A stretch of DNA of 40,816 nt from Bacteroidales bacterium (lineage in GTDB: Bacteria > Bacteroidota > Bacteroidia > Bacteroidales > UBA932). The stretch lies in assembly GCA_017455065.1 (NCBI GenBank), contig JAFTBU010000058.1, positions 1 to 40,816 of the forward strand, written 5' to 3'. Below the pieces are notes generated by a model. The model was given only the letters and a program-made list of their open reading frames with translations. It was not told the origin of the DNA and did not search any database. This document shows, one piece after another, positions 27,031-40,128 of this stretch (position 1 is the stretch's first letter; each line of letters starts with the position of its first letter). Position numbers and translations under genes: made by a program.

Positions 27031-27287
27031 ATCTTTTGAATTCTTGTTGAAAAGCGGTTTAAAGCATTGTTTATTTCAGGCCTCGCCGGAGTTGATAACT
27101 TTCATGGCTGAGTTTTCAACTGTCCGCCAAACTCTCCGGGCACCGGTTTTTCAACAGGAATTTTTTTTTCAATAGTTTCAATTATAACTGATTATGGATG
27201 TTTTAACAATTTCAACAGCTAAATAAACATAACCAGATTATAAAAATAAAAAAGTATATTTGTATTTGGATTACAAACTGGGGCTAT
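27031..27287. promoter_or_regulatory. mfd-ruvB divergent intergenic region with TT(A/T)TCAAC motif cluster
   Basis: This 257-base AT-rich gap separates two divergent genes. Exact TT(A/T)TCAAC copies lie at 27113-27120 and 27148-27155 on the plus strand and 27046-27053 and 27091-27098 on the minus strand; a fifth (27021-27028, plus strand) lies just inside mfd. Near matches are at 27166-27173 and 27209-27216. The motif differs by one base from a typical DnaA box (TTATCCACA). A strongly AT-rich stretch follows (27181-27265) and holds the ruvB -7 box. DnaA binding, a local regulator or chance are all possible. Confidence 0.45.
27255..27262 (+). promoter_or_regulatory. -7 box of ruvB
   Basis: TATATTTG fits TAnnTTTG and ends 25 bases before the ruvB ATG. 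No clear -33 TTTG is seen at the expected distance. Confidence 0.5.
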
Positions 27288-33560: not shown

Positions 33561-35447
33561 ATGGACTATTCTTATGACATAATAGTCGTGGGCGGAGGTC
33601 ATGCCGGCTGTGAAGCAGCCATGGCCGCTTCCAATCTCGGAGCCTCTGTGCTGCTGGTCACCGCCGATATGACTTCTTATGCCAAGATGTCCTGCAATCC
33701 TGCGGTTGGAGGTATTGCCAAGGGTCAGATAGTCCGCGAGATCGACGCGCTCGGAGGCTATACCGGAATAGTCACTGATATGTCCACCCTCCAGTTCCGC
33801 ATGCTGAACCGCTCAAAAGGTCCCGCAATGTGGAGCCCTAGGGCCCAGTGCGACAAAATCCAATTTTCGCTGAATTGGCGTAAAATACTTGAAAGTAATT
33901 CAAAATTAGATATTTACGCTGATTTTGCCACAGAATTCCTCTTCGAGAATTCAAAAATCTGCGGAGTCATGACCAATACAGGCGCTATTTTCAAGTCTCG
34001 GGCAGTTGTTTTGACTGCAGGAACTTTCCTCGGAGGCAAGCTTTTCATCGGCCGGACCAGGATGGAAGGAGGAAGAATCGGCGAATTTGCCTCTTACGGA
34101 CTCACTCAGCAGCTCTCTTCTTACGGTATAAACACCGACAGAATGAAGACCGGGACCCCTCCGAGGATAGATATTTCGTCTGTCGACACCTCTACATTGA
34201 CTCAGCAATTCGGCGATGTAGAGCCTGAGCGTTTTTCGTACCTTTTGTCTCCGTCATCTATTCAGGCAGGATTGCCTCAAATGGCCTGCTATATCCTTCA
34301 TACAACTGAAAAGGTGCATGATATTTTACGTCAAGGATTTAGCGACTCGCCACTTTTCTCCGGAGCCATACATGGCAAAGGCCCCAGATATTGCCCAAGC
34401 ATAGAAGACAAACTTCGTGTATTTCCGGATAAGTTGTCTCATCAACTTTTCCTCGAGCCTGAGGGTCGGAACACTACAGAATTCTACCTTCAGGGCTTCT
34501 CTTCTTCGCTCCCTTTACAGACCCAGTTGGATGCTCTTCATGCCATTCCCGGTCTAGAGTCTGTCAAGATTTTCCGTCCTGCTTACGCTGTCGAGTACGA
34601 CTATTTCGATCCTCGTCAACTTTACAAAACTCTCGAATCCCGCTGCATCGAAAATTTATATCTCGCCGGTCAGGTCAACGGAACTACAGGATACGAAGAA
34701 GCCGCAGCACAGGGTTTGGTAGCCGGCATCAATGCTGCGCTTAAACTTCAGGGAAAAGAGCCTTTCATACTCTCCAGAGATGAATCTTACATAGGTGTTT
34801 TGATAGATGATCTCATCACAAAGGGTGTGGATGAACCTTACCGTATGTTCACTTCCAGGGCCGAATTCCGCATTCTGCTGCGCCAGGACAATGCTGATGA
34901 ACGGCTTACAGCCAAGTCCCATGCTATAGGACTGGCCTCTGATGAGAGGTACGAGACTATGCTGAACAAGTATTCTCAGGTCAATAAACTACTCGAGTTA
35001 TCTTCTTCAGCGAAGATCACTGCAAAGTCTGTCAATAGTTATCTTGAATCTGTATCTTCGACGCCTTTGACTGATTCCAAGAAACTGTCTGAGTTGGTTA
35101 CTCGCCCAGAGCTCTCCCTTACCTCTTTGCTCCCTTTTGTTCCACGTGGAACATTTGATATATTTGGAGTTAAACTTCCTGTAGATAAGGAAGTTACGGA
35201 TTCTGTGGAAATCTCTATCAAGTATAAAGGATATATTGAAAGGGAGATTCAGTTGGCTAAAAAGCTGAACCGACTTGAGGATCTTGCCATTCCTGATACC
35301 TTCGACTTTTCCAAGGTTTCAGGCCTCACTATAGAGTGCCGGCAGAAGCTTGAGAGATATAAACCCCGCACCATAGCAGATGCTTCCCGTATTTCGGGAG
35401 TCTCTCCTTCTGATATAGCTGTGCTTCTGGTGTATTTCGGCCGCTGA
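33561..35447 (+). CDS. mnmG: tRNA uridine-5-carboxymethylaminomethyl modification enzyme MnmG
   Basis: A 628-residue FAD enzyme that, with MnmE, modifies wobble uridine 34 of certain tRNAs. FAD-binding [10 protein letters not shown] at 11-20, [11 protein letters not shown] near 46-56, a GTPPRID motif and the C-terminal helical domain ([23 protein letters not shown]) are all present. Length is typical. The coding sequence uses clearly more A/T-ending codons than mutS or glyS. Its 3' part contains a perfect parS-like palindrome (35138-35153) encoding V-P-R-G-T, and a second copy follows the stop directly. In many bacteria this gene lies near the replication origin. Confidence 0.98.
35138..35153. 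promoter_or_regulatory. parS-like centromere site inside mnmG
   Basis: The perfect 16-bp palindrome TGTTCCACGTGGAACA matches the bacterial chromosomal parS consensus bound by ParB (TGTTnCACGTGAAACA and its symmetrical forms). It is embedded in the mnmG reading frame and encodes V-P-R-G-T. An identical copy lies 310 bp downstream. No parA or parB gene is present in the window. Confidence 0.8.
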
Positions 35448-35463
35448 TGTTCCACGTGGAACA
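35448..35463. promoter_or_regulatory. parS-like centromere site between mnmG and ruvA
   Basis: An identical palindrome TGTTCCACGTGGAACA fills exactly the 16 bases between the mnmG TGA (35445-35447) and the ruvA stop (TTA on this strand, 35464-35466). Nothing else lies in the gap. The palindrome could also fold as a bidirectional hairpin in both transcripts. Confidence 0.85.
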
Positions 35464-36057
35464 TTAGAGCATTTTCAGGGCTTCTTTGATTATGTCCTCC
35501 ACCTTTGCAGCGGGGTTCTTTTTCAGTATAGCCTTGATGGCCTTGTCGATGTTCTGCTTGTTGAACCCAAGTATTTGGAGGGCAGAAGAAGCTTCTTCCA
35601 CATTCTCGTTTTTCTCCGCAAAGAACAGTGCCTCAGCATCTGCGCTGCCGCCTTTGATTATCTTGTCCTTAAGCTCCAAAATTAGCCTCTGGGCACTCTT
35701 GAGGCCTATTCCTTTGACAGATTTGATGGTGTTGGTATTCTCCGAAAGTATCGCCTCCCTGAGTTCATCCGGCGACAGCGAAGACAAAATCATCCTGGCC
35801 GAAGCGGCTCCGATACCGGACACGCTGGTGATCTGGCAGAACAGTTCTCTTTCGCTCTTGGTCGCGAAGCCGTAATCTACCGTAGTCCCTTCCCGTGGGT
35901 TGGCCTGCTGCTGGATATACACCGTCCCTTCGCTTTTTCCTTCAAATGCCGCGTAGGTCTGCAGGGATATTTCTACTGCGTAGCCAATACCCTGATTGTC
36001 AATTACTAAGCGAGTCGGCGTGAGCTCCGCCACCCTGCCTGAAATGTAATCTGTCAT
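35464..36057 (-). CDS. ruvA: Holliday junction DNA helicase subunit RuvA
   Basis: A 197-residue junction-binding protein that loads RuvB rings on Holliday junctions. An N-terminal OB-fold (MTDYISGRVAELTPTRLVIDNQGIGYAVEIS), two helix-hairpin-helix motifs (ITSVSGIGAASARMIL and IKSVKGIGLKSAQRLILELKDK) and a C-terminal domain that contacts RuvB (SALQILGFNKQNIDKAIKAIL) are in order. I chose ATG 36057, giving normal length; a longer frame begins at 36108 but crosses the -7 box. It is a single gene, divergent from sufS. Confidence 0.96.
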   Translation of the reverse strand: MTDYISGRVAELTPTRLVIDNQGIGYAVEISLQTYAAFEGKSEGTVYIQQQANPREGTTVDYGFATKSERELFCQITSVSGIGAASARMILSSLSPDELREAILSENTNTIKSVKGIGLKSAQRLILELKDKIIKGGSADAEALFFAEKNENVEEASSALQILGFNKQNIDKAIKAILKKNPAAKVEDIIKEALKML

Positions 36058-36086
36058 AAACTCGATATTTCTTGATCTTATCTGTA

Positions 36087-36094
36087 CAAATATA
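36087..36094 (-). promoter_or_regulatory. -7 box of ruvA
   Basis: On the minus strand TATATTTG fits TAnnTTTG, about 29 bases before the ruvA start. It lies back to back with the sufS -7 box 24 bases away. Confidence 0.5.
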
Positions 36095-36117
36095 GGATTT
36101 TTGGCCAAGAAAAATGC

Positions 36118-36125
36118 TATCTTTG
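36118..36125 (+). promoter_or_regulatory. -7 box of the sufS operon
   Basis: TATCTTTG fits TAnnTTTG and ends 9 bases before the sufS ATG at 36135. It excludes the upstream in-frame ATG at 36114 as a start from this promoter. Confidence 0.55.
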
Positions 36126-36134
36126 CGTTTCAAT

Positions 36135-37364
36135 ATGAATCAGATAGAGTTCATAAGAAGCCAATTCCCCCAGCTGGGCGAGAAAGTGTACGGCAAGGAC
36201 CTGGTCTACCTGGACAATGCCGCGACCTCTCTCCGTCCCCGCAGCGTCGTGCAAAAATGGGAGGAGATGTCGCTGAGGTACAATTCAAACCTCCACCGGG
36301 CCGTGCACCGTATCGCGCAGCTCGCTACGGAGGAGTATGAGGCCACCCGCGAGGCAGTAAGGGCCTTTATCAATGCTGAAAGCGCTTCGGAGATAGTTTT
36401 CACCTACGGCGCCACGGCATCTCTCAACCTCGTTGCATTCTGTTTCGGTGAGGCTTTCGTCTCCGAAGGCGACGAGATCCTGGTTTCCGAGGCGGAGCAC
36501 CACTCCAACATTGTCCCCTGGCAGCTTATGTGCGAGCGCAAAGGCGCCGTCGTCAAGGTGCTTCCTGTCGATGAGCGCGGAGAGCTCCGACTAGACCTCC
36601 TGCCTTCGCTCATCACCCCCCGTACCAAGCTCGTCTGCGTCAGTCACATCTCCAACGTACTGGGTATAGTAAATCCTCTGAAACAGATAGTAAATATTTG
36701 TCATTCAATGAATTGTCCCGTCCTCACCGATGGCGCGCAGGGGATAGTCCACGAGGATGTCGATGTCCGCGAGACCGGCTGCGATTTCTATGTGTTCTCG
36801 GGTCACAAGCTTTTCGCCGCACCCGGCACGGGAGTGCTCTACGCCAAGCGTTCCTTCCTGGACAGTTTCCCTCCTTACATGGGCGGCGGTGAGATGATCG
36901 ACACGGTCCGCTGGAGCGGGACGACCTACGCCCTCCCTCCGCACAAGTTCGAGGCCGGCACCCAGAACATCTCCGGCACTCCTACACTGGTGCCTGCGAT
37001 AGAGATGGCTGAAGCATTGAGACAGAATGAGATAGACCAGCTTCAAACAGCCCTCAGGGACTATGTCTCGAGCGAGTTGAAAGCTATTTCCGGACTCAGG
37101 ATTTTCGGAGAGCCCTGCTCGGATGAAAACAAGATCCCCCTCTTTTCGTTCAGCGTGGAGGGAGCCCACCACGAAGATCTCGCCCTGCTCCTGGACAAGA
37201 TGGGAGTGGCGGTCCGCTCCGGCCAGATGTGCGCCGAGCCTCTTATGGACCGGTTCGGCGTGACAGGGATGCTGAGGGCATCCTTCGCCCCCTACAACAC
37301 CATGCAGGAGGCGGAATATTTCATAGCTTCTCTCAGAAAAGCGATAACGATGCTGAGAGGATAA
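36135..37364 (+). CDS. sufS: Cysteine desulfurase SufS
   Basis: A 409-residue pyridoxal-phosphate enzyme that takes sulfur from cysteine for iron-sulfur cluster assembly. The PLP-binding lysine is Lys225 in SGHKLFAAPGTG; the persulfide cysteine is Cys366 in RSGQMCAEPLM, the group II pattern. It begins YLDNAATSLRP near residue 25. The start at 36135 follows the -7 box. sufE follows after 11 bases, so sulfur transfer SufS to SufE is encoded as a unit. sufB, sufC and sufD are not in the window. Confidence 0.96.
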   Translation: MNQIEFIRSQFPQLGEKVYGKDLVYLDNAATSLRPRSVVQKWEEMSLRYNSNLHRAVHRIAQLATEEYEATREAVRAFINAESASEIVFTYGATASLNLVAFCFGEAFVSEGDEILVSEAEHHSNIVPWQLMCERKGAVVKVLPVDERGELRLDLLPSLITPRTKLVCVSHISNVLGIVNPLKQIVNICHSMNCPVLTDGAQGIVHEDVDVRETGCDFYVFSGHKLFAAPGTGVLYAKRSFLDSFPPYMGGGEMIDTVRWSGTTYALPPHKFEAGTQNISGTPTLVPAIEMAEALRQNEIDQLQTALRDYVSSELKAISGLRIFGEPCSDENKIPLFSFSVEGAHHEDLALLLDKMGVAVRSGQMCAEPLMDRFGVTGMLRASFAPYNTMQEAEYFIASLRKAITMLRG

Positions 37365-38589: not shown

Positions 38590-40128
38590 ATGACTCAGGA
38601 CGAATTATTCAAGGTACTCGTAGCTCACTGCAAGGAGTACGGATTTATTTTCCCTTCCAGCGAGATTTACGACGGACTTGCCGCCGTGTACGACTACGGC
38701 CAGATGGGCGTTGAGCTCAAGAACAATATCAAGCAGTACTGGTGGAACGCCATGACCCGCCTCAATGAAAACATCGTGGGTATCGATTCCTGCATCTTCA
38801 TGCACCCCAAGATCTGGGAGGCTTCCGGCCACGTGAGCGCATTCAACGACCCCCTCATCGACAACAAAGACTCCAAGAAACGCTATCGCGCCGACGTCCT
38901 GATCGAGGATTATCTCGGCAAGCTTGAGGAAAAGGTCAACAAGGAAGTGGAGAAAGGCCGCAAGAAGTTCGGCGAGAGCTTCGACGAGGCCCAGTTCCGC
39001 GCCACCAACCCCAACGTGCTCCGCGAGCAGGCCAAGTATGACGAGATCCACAACCGCTACGTCGCAGCCGAGCAGGCCTCCGATTTCGCCGAATACCGCC
39101 AGATCATCTACGATTGCAACATAGTCTGCCCCATCAGCGGCACCTGCAACTGGACCGAAGTGCGTCAGTTCAACCTGATGTTCTCCACCTCCATGGGCAG
39201 CACCTCCGAGGGCGCCAACATCATCTATCTGCGTCCCGAGACCGCCCAGGGCATCTTCGTGAACTACCTGAACGTACAGAAGACCGGCCGCATGAAGATT
39301 CCCTTCGGCATCGCCCAGATAGGCAAGGCCTTCCGCAACGAGATCGTCGCCCGCCAGTTCATCTTCCGCATGAGGGAGTTCGAGCAGATGGAGATGCAGT
39401 TCTTCATCAAGCCGGGCACCGAGCTCGACTGGTTCGCAAAATGGAAGGAGCAGCGTATGAAGTGGCATGTCAATATCGGCATGGGTGCGGAGAATTACCG
39501 CTTCCACGACCATGAGAAACTGGCCCACTACGCTAATGCCGCGACCGATATCGAGTTCAATTTCCCGTTCGGATTCAAGGAGCTGGAGGGTATCCACAGC
39601 CGCACGAACTTCGATCTGGGCAATCACCAGAAGTTCTCCGGAAAGAAGATCGAGTACTTCGATCCCGAAGAGAATCAGGCATATACGCCGTATGTGGTGG
39701 AGACTTCCATCGGCGTGGACCGCATGGTCCTGGCCGTCCTGTCACACTCGTTCCACGAGGAACAGTTGGAGAACGGCGAGACCCGCGTGGTGATGAGCAT
39801 CCCCGCTCCTCTCGCCCCGGTGAAGGCCGCAGTGCTGCCGCTAGTGAAGAAAGACGGTCTGCCCGAGCTGGCTCAGGAAATCATGAACGACCTGAAATAC
39901 GATTTCAATTGCCAATACGAGGAGAAGGATTCCATCGGCAAGCGTTATCGTCGCCAGGATGCCATCGGAACGCCGTTCTGCATCACCGTGGACCACGATT
40001 CCCTGAATGACCGCTGCGTGACCGTGCGCGACCGTGACACGATGGAGCAGCAGCGCGTTCCCATCGCCCAGCTGCGTGCGATGATCGATGAAAAGGTGAA
40101 TCTGAACAACCTGCTCAGGAAACTTTAG
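38590..40128 (+). CDS. glyS: Glycyl-tRNA synthetase (single-chain class II)
   Basis: A 512-residue alpha2-type glycyl-tRNA synthetase that charges tRNA-Gly with glycine. It has the GFIFPSSEIY N-terminal block, LRPETAQGIFVNY, class II motif 2 (GKAFRNEIVARQFIFRMREFEQMEMQFF region) and motif 3 in VETSIGVDRMVLAVL. The C-terminal anticodon-binding domain starts near IPAPLAPVKAAVLPL. This is the single-chain form, not the separate alpha and beta chains of E. coli. The next gene starts 7 bases after the stop. Confidence 0.97.
   Translation: MTQDELFKVLVAHCKEYGFIFPSSEIYDGLAAVYDYGQMGVELKNNIKQYWWNAMTRLNENIVGIDSCIFMHPKIWEASGHVSAFNDPLIDNKDSKKRYRADVLIEDYLGKLEEKVNKEVEKGRKKFGESFDEAQFRATNPNVLREQAKYDEIHNRYVAAEQASDFAEYRQIIYDCNIVCPISGTCNWTEVRQFNLMFSTSMGSTSEGANIIYLRPETAQGIFVNYLNVQKTGRMKIPFGIAQIGKAFRNEIVARQFIFRMREFEQMEMQFFIKPGTELDWFAKWKEQRMKWHVNIGMGAENYRFHDHEKLAHYANAATDIEFNFPFGFKELEGIHSRTNFDLGNHQKFSGKKIEYFDPEENQAYTPYVVETSIGVDRMVLAVLSHSFHEEQLENGETRVVMSIPAPLAPVKAAVLPLVKKDGLPELAQEIMNDLKYDFNCQYEEKDSIGKRYRRQDAIGTPFCITVDHDSLNDRCVTVRDRDTMEQQRVPIAQLRAMIDEKVNLNNLLRKL

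Follow-up and report, generated by a model that had tools for sequence, protein, structure and literature searches.

The end of mnmG in this member of the Bacteroidales carries the same 16-bp palindrome twice, once within the reading frame and once between the gene and its convergent neighbour, ruvA. The question raised by this arrangement is whether the two palindromes are centromeric parS sites and, if so, why one of them lies inside a protein-coding gene. The window, by which we mean the whole stretch of 40,816 nucleotides that was analyzed, has the following features at this place.

33561..35447, + strand: mnmG (gidA), host of copy 1 (TIGR00136, 801.5 bits, cut-off 524.85)
35138..35153, no strand assigned: copy 1 of the probable parS, inside mnmG, codons 527-531 (VPRGT); exact palindrome; in-gene site in 79/81 rows (≤2 mismatches); synonymous constraint
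35448..35463, no strand assigned: copy 2 of the probable parS, filling the mnmG-ruvA gap between the convergent stop codons; exact palindrome
35464..36108, - strand: ruvA, convergent neighbour (TIGR00084, 178.2 bits, cut-off 85)

Two identical parS-like palindromes at the end of mnmG

The word TGTTCCACGTGGAACA is a perfect palindrome of 16 bp, and the window holds two exact copies of it, at 35138-35153 and 35448-35463, with a start-to-start distance of 310 bp. In copy 1 a leading T is followed by the codons GTT, CCA, CGT, GGA and ACA, which encode VPRGT, residues 527-531 of MnmG. The stop codon of mnmG (TGA) occupies 35445-35447 and that of ruvA (TTA on the + strand) 35464-35466, so the gap between the two genes is exactly the 16-mer. 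The initial annotation had described two identical palindromes 310 bp apart, the first in the mnmG frame and the second taking up every base between the convergent stop codons, and all three points were confirmed.

Dinucleotide shuffles of the window gave an expectation of 0.16 matches at ≤3 mismatches, and none of 100 shuffles reached three matches; a third place in the window, 39749-39764, matches at 2 mismatches. When the whole assembly was searched (2,099,707 bases in 64 contigs, 96.68% complete), the two copies in the window were the only exact copies of TGTTCCACGTGGAACA, and no copy at 1 mismatch was found anywhere in it. Two further places matched at 2 mismatches, the one at 39749 of the window and one at position 164107 of contig C49, and both were excluded from the parS set. 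The word is thus not scattered round the genome, and both exact copies lie at the mnmG end.

Chromosomal parS sites (consensus TGTTTCACGTGAAACA) are likewise 16-bp palindromes with copies clustered near the origin; TGTTCCACGTGGAACA departs from this idealised consensus at 2 positions, with C5 and G12 for T and A. To judge from sequence, the two palindromes are very probably parS and would be bound by ParB. We hold it highly likely that they act as ParB nucleation sites of a ParABS system, that they are the only good centromere candidates in the assembly, and that the in-gene copy is kept for its DNA.

The ParA and ParB proteins

One ParB-family gene was found in the genome of the window, on contig C61 and outside the window itself, with a parA frame directly upstream. 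The parB gene that the centromere reading of the initial annotation calls for is therefore present, as a single family member with an adjacent parA. Its product has ParB_N and HTH_ParB domains, aligns with solved ParB chains and exceeds the parB_part cut-off; its best NCBIfam score, 226.4 bits, was to nucleoid_noc and lies below that model's cut-off of 315. Residues that separate ParB from Noc are described in the available sections of Jalal et al. 2020 (PMC7383237). With positions counted by hand on the alignment, the equivalents of R173 and G201 are kept, which is the ParB type, and the equivalents of S172 and R204 are K, unlike the consensus.

The sites might instead bind a Noc-like protein, or another regulator acting on mnmG or ruvA. 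Noc belongs to the same family as ParB, and it was the Noc model that gave the highest NCBIfam score; however, the two contact residues that distinguish ParB from Noc are of the ParB type and not the Noc-type Q173 and R201, and only a single ParB-family gene was found in this genome. The Noc site (NBS), as given in the accessible part of PMC7383237, is TATTTCCCGGGAAATA, a different word, and according to the part of PMC4331003 available such sites are spread around the chromosome, as against a single locus here. Binding by a Noc-like protein or other regulator is accordingly very unlikely. The ParABS reading agrees with known chromosomal systems in that ParB has matching specificity residues and parA adjoins parB; it differs from them in that parS does not lie near parAB and is linked with mnmG in the samples from order and phylum described below.

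Six matches to PF02463 were found in the genome, in open frames of 222 to 622 aa, and there was no long Smc frame in the assembly, which is 96.68% complete. Smc proteins are about 1,100-1,200 aa long. For lack of a long Smc frame, the mechanism proposed below does not include SMC loading. The available text of PMC10197239 reports no condensin homologue in Bacteroides caecimuris, and together these two observations suggest that segregation is driven by ParA.

Distribution of the site in the family

In the family of the window, 54 of 79 genomes have a site at ≤1 mismatch, individual positions being among the matches listed. mnmG was found in 62 of the 79, and a site was present in 53 of these 62 vs 1 of the 17 genomes without mnmG. 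Finer positions were obtained from 80 named loci (the best 80 of 587). Judged by these loci, the window comes from a Bacteroidales MAG with relatives among rumen MAGs, horse-gut MAGs and Candidatus Cryptobacteroides, probably in GTDB family UBA932. Across these best 80 of 587 loci (1.46 Mb), 124 of 127 sites at ≤1 mismatch lie in mnmG or ≤2.2 kb after it. An in-gene site (≤2 mismatches) was found in 78 of these best 80 of 587, the best site being always in the same codon phase; when the window is added to the best 80 of 587, the in-gene site is present in 79/81 and a site ≤60 bp after the stop codon in 36/81.

The 3' end of mnmG was also compared in 45 of 46 family loci, the window included and one locus without a C-terminus left out. 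Both an in-gene and a downstream site (≤400 bp) were present in 23, an in-gene site only in 11, a downstream site only in 8, and neither in 3, and the 34 in-gene sites are all in the same phase. The in-gene copy is thus missing in 2 of the named loci (best 80 of 587) and in 11 of the 45 family 3' ends. One of the three loci with neither, L012, has sites farther on.

Linkage to mnmG across the order and phylum

The linkage is more general than the initial annotation supposed. From 127 genomes of the order outside the family that matched MnmG (in two cases by a weak paralogue), 68 regions were taken, comprising the 28 best matches and 40 picked by hand. A site (≤2 mismatches of TGTTYCACGTGRAACA) lies ≤300 bp after the mnmG stop codon in 62 of these 68 and is missing in 6; in 50 of the 62 it lies ≤10 bp from the stop. 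An in-gene mnmG site was found in 0 of the 68 regions. parS itself occurred in 89 of 139 genomes of the order vs 1 of 139 for a control palindrome with a swapped centre, and among the exact sites listed (56 of the 89 matching genomes) 69 of 75 are ≤500 bp from mnmG.

For the phylum, 69 of 73 sites among those listed (42 of 110 matching genomes, the window's own two sites left out of the 73) are ≤500 bp from mnmG. Among the listed phylum sites, 46 precede the mnmG start, 24 follow its stop codon and 1 lies within the gene (G231). Few listed sites, in order or phylum, lie away from mnmG. Family f134 (G277, G266, G320 and others) has exact parS on both sides of mnmG in 9 of 16 genomes among those listed, the flanking sites being 3 to 14 bp from the mnmG ends. 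To judge from the pattern in order and phylum, the pairing of parS with mnmG appears to be ancient, and the copy at codon 527 to be derived within the window's family.

The gap copy might be read as a bidirectional terminator between the convergent mnmG and ruvA, with the in-gene copy unrelated to it. Together with its flanks, the gap forms a strong RNA fold (-15.1 kcal/mol, z -4.9, 0 of 200 shuffles), and a terminator scan called the in-gene copy terminator-like (2 found vs 1.2 expected from shuffles); the gap copy, however, was not among the results of that scan, and its sequence matches parS. The would-be loop bases are conserved at 1.00, 0.89, 1.00 and 1.00 over 36 downstream copies, whereas a terminator needs no conservation there, and the same word occurs inside mnmG and, in many phylum genomes among the sites listed, before the mnmG start. 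A terminator alone is extremely improbable; since the gap copy folds as a hairpin, it is possible that it doubles as parS and terminator.

Probable selection on the DNA of the in-gene copy

The codon for V527 is GTT in 79 of 79 rows and that for P528 is CCA in 78 of 79, counted where these residues are present. When 216 four-fold columns were ranked by third-base conservation, the four core codons took ranks 1, 2, 3 and 5. Departures from the commonest codon at these four were 4 synonymous vs 18 non-synonymous, a count that takes in two rows without a site (3:12 in the 79 site-keeping rows alone) and whose rows, being related, are not independent events. In 130 conserved columns elsewhere in mnmG the departures were 6100 synonymous vs 199 non-synonymous, and the inverted ratio of the core codons was seen in none of the 130. 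The proposal that the 3' end of mnmG is under selection to keep a DNA site thus gained support from near-fixed four-fold codons and from core changes of 4:18 vs 6100:199. Nor was the palindrome lost in relatives while VPRGT was kept, the core departures being mostly non-silent.

Variation falls on the same positions whether a copy is coding or not, mainly the outermost bases and the centre. In-gene and downstream copies of the same locus share 15.09 identical positions vs 14.80 when permuted (5 of 5000, 34 rows), a sign of slight concerted change that may be shared ancestry.

Alternatively, MnmG might need VPRGT as a functional peptide, and the palindrome would then merely follow from the codons used. 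The invariant phase fits this reading (34/34 in-gene sites at the family 3' ends, and 78/78 best sites among the named loci, best 80 of 587). Against it, little variation is left in four-fold codon choice, most core changes are non-synonymous, the other families of the order have no in-gene mnmG site (0/68), and the word and peptide occur also in the unrelated SufS of some relatives; we regard it as scarcely credible. In view of codon conservation and the 4:18 ratio, a protein motif was rejected as the explanation of the in-gene copy. The VPRGT stretch of MnmG seems, on these comparisons of sequence, to be preserved for the DNA word rather than for its amino acids.

Context of the in-gene copies in MnmG and SufS

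VPRGT stands at the opening of an MnmG loop whose length varies greatly and which is otherwise difficult to align, and solved MnmG chains align at the loop without VPRGT. The other two phases of TGTTCCACGTGGAACA would encode C-S-T-W-N or F-H-V-E; the VPRGT phase may be the one tolerated because it is turn-like. The in-gene parS of mnmG is lost in L048 and L058, where the loop sequence is different. A CHSERSE-like peptide is found in the loop of L048 and L093; we take it to resemble a repeat that is often translated in Bacteroidales.

The same word is found in a second, nearby gene of some relatives.

36114..37364, + strand: sufS-type gene, name read from the translation; parS-like word at residue 332 in some relatives, absent here

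Among 77 sufS genes of relatives there are 25 parS-like sites (≤2 mismatches), of which 24 are at residue 332 and one is 4 residues away. The word and its phase are the same as in mnmG, and VPRGT is present in 18 of 74 aligned SufS rows. The residue-332 word was seen in L046, L048, L049, L080, L114 and others. In L076 the sufS word is 4 residues off, perhaps an independent gain.

A second span of synonymous constraint was found in mnmG and was not counted in the centromere.

33879..34031, no strand assigned: second synonymous-constraint span in mnmG, codons about 107-157

Smoothed excess in this span reached 0.50 at codon 113 vs a gene mean of 0.07 (81 family rows). The span is AT-rich and has short inverted repeats in relatives. 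An overlapping gene was rejected, since each of the other frames is interrupted by stop codons in 80 or more of the 81 rows. No consensus RNA fold was obtained for the span and it had no Rfam match, an Rfam search of the whole window giving zero matches. The constraint at codons 107-157 did not appear in the sets of 28 mnmG genes from the order and 29 from the phylum.

Probable position of the replication origin

The initial annotation took the palindromes for an origin-proximal centromere. Skew was fitted in the genomes of relatives, the window's own assembly being in 64 contigs, and each fit used 20 stretches of 20 kb. In three single-contig genomes of the family (G077, G003 and G010), mnmG is separated from dnaA and parB by hundreds of kb, and GC skew at third codon positions changes from negative to positive at mnmG or close to it. 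The best-fit origins vs mnmG were 1460-1505 vs 1509 kb, 630-635 vs 686 kb and 70-75 vs 1 kb. The score at mnmG was reached by 0 of 2000 permutations in each of the three, and the score at parB or dnaA was far lower. For G209, another genome of the order, the fit gave 1555-1620 kb vs mnmG at 1674 kb (0/2000), and in G309, of the same class, a weak fit gave 2860-2870 kb vs mnmG at 2765 kb (21/2000). The best-fit origins are thus off mnmG by 4 to 95 kb. Averaging the skew of 81 loci on a finer scale failed to place the origin, as codon bias tied to gene orientation dominates.

DnaA boxes of the form TTATCCACA were not enriched at mnmG, with 8 one-mismatch hits in the window vs 5.9 expected, and no exact hit was found in the bins around mnmG in 81 loci. 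A related word, TTATNNACA, pointed to the divergent gap between mfd and ruvB.

27031..27287, no strand assigned: candidate oriC in the divergent mfd-ruvB gap; AT-rich; DnaA-box-like words TTATCAACA and TTTTCAACA

Thirty homologous mfd-ruvB gaps (those of the window, 28 named loci and G010) contain 139 boxes at ≤1 mismatch of TTATCAACA vs a shuffled mean of 7.9, with a mean GC of 0.283. Because of this enrichment, TTATCAACA is taken as the probable DnaA box of the clade. The mfd-ruvB gap is likely to be oriC, which would place the origin 8 kb from parS. An origin-proximal centromere is supported both by this gap of DnaA boxes and by the skew switch at or near mnmG in relatives.

Discussion

By analogy with known systems, ParB would load at the two parS sites as a CTP-dependent clamp and slide over mnmG, ruvA and the flanking DNA, and ParA would move the ParB-DNA complexes apart soon after the nearby origin fires. 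Across the phylum, the centromere would have tended to remain with mnmG while parAB and dnaA came to sit elsewhere. In the family of the window an extra copy appears to have been fixed in the mnmG frame, in the single phase VPRGT and beside a loop of variable length. We think it likely that the attachment of parS to the mnmG ends predates the split between the sampled classes of Bacteroidota, though parAB and dnaA moved, and that in the window's family parS entered the coding sequence and remade MnmG and some SufS, the VPRGT loop existing only for the DNA word.

A coding parS as such is already known: parS-359 of B. subtilis lies inside the parB gene, according to the available part of PMC4442127. 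The host there is parB, near dnaA, whereas here it is mnmG, which in three single-contig relatives is far from parAB; the copy here also lies beside a length-variable loop, and in some relatives a second gene, sufS, carries one. The accessible text of PMC2099444 counts parA, parB, gidA, gidB, dnaA and others as 'origin genes' and places gidA (mnmG) often near the origin. That text draws no tie between parS and gidA, while here parA, parB and dnaA are gone from the locus and gidA and parS are together. For mouse-gut bacteria including Bacteroides caecimuris, the available sections of PMC10197239 describe parS clustered at the skew origin and dnaA not always there. The clustering is the same as that seen here, and those sections give neither gene context nor an in-gene copy. 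No description of parS-mnmG linkage in Bacteroidota was found in open-access PMC titles and abstract openings; Livny et al. 2007, the main survey, may list positions.

The reason for the close spacing of parS sites, and the force behind their clustering, are raised as questions in the available part of a review (PMC7333895). The Bacteroidota would offer a large natural experiment on this question: in the samples from order and phylum, parS mostly lies within base pairs of a single gene, and one family has additional copies inside two neighbouring genes. The in-gene copies would provide a clean case of selection at the DNA level overriding selection at the protein level. In fragmented genomes of Bacteroidota the origin region could be guessed from mnmG, and the question of whether parS is held by its host gene or by mere nearness to oriC is now directly testable.
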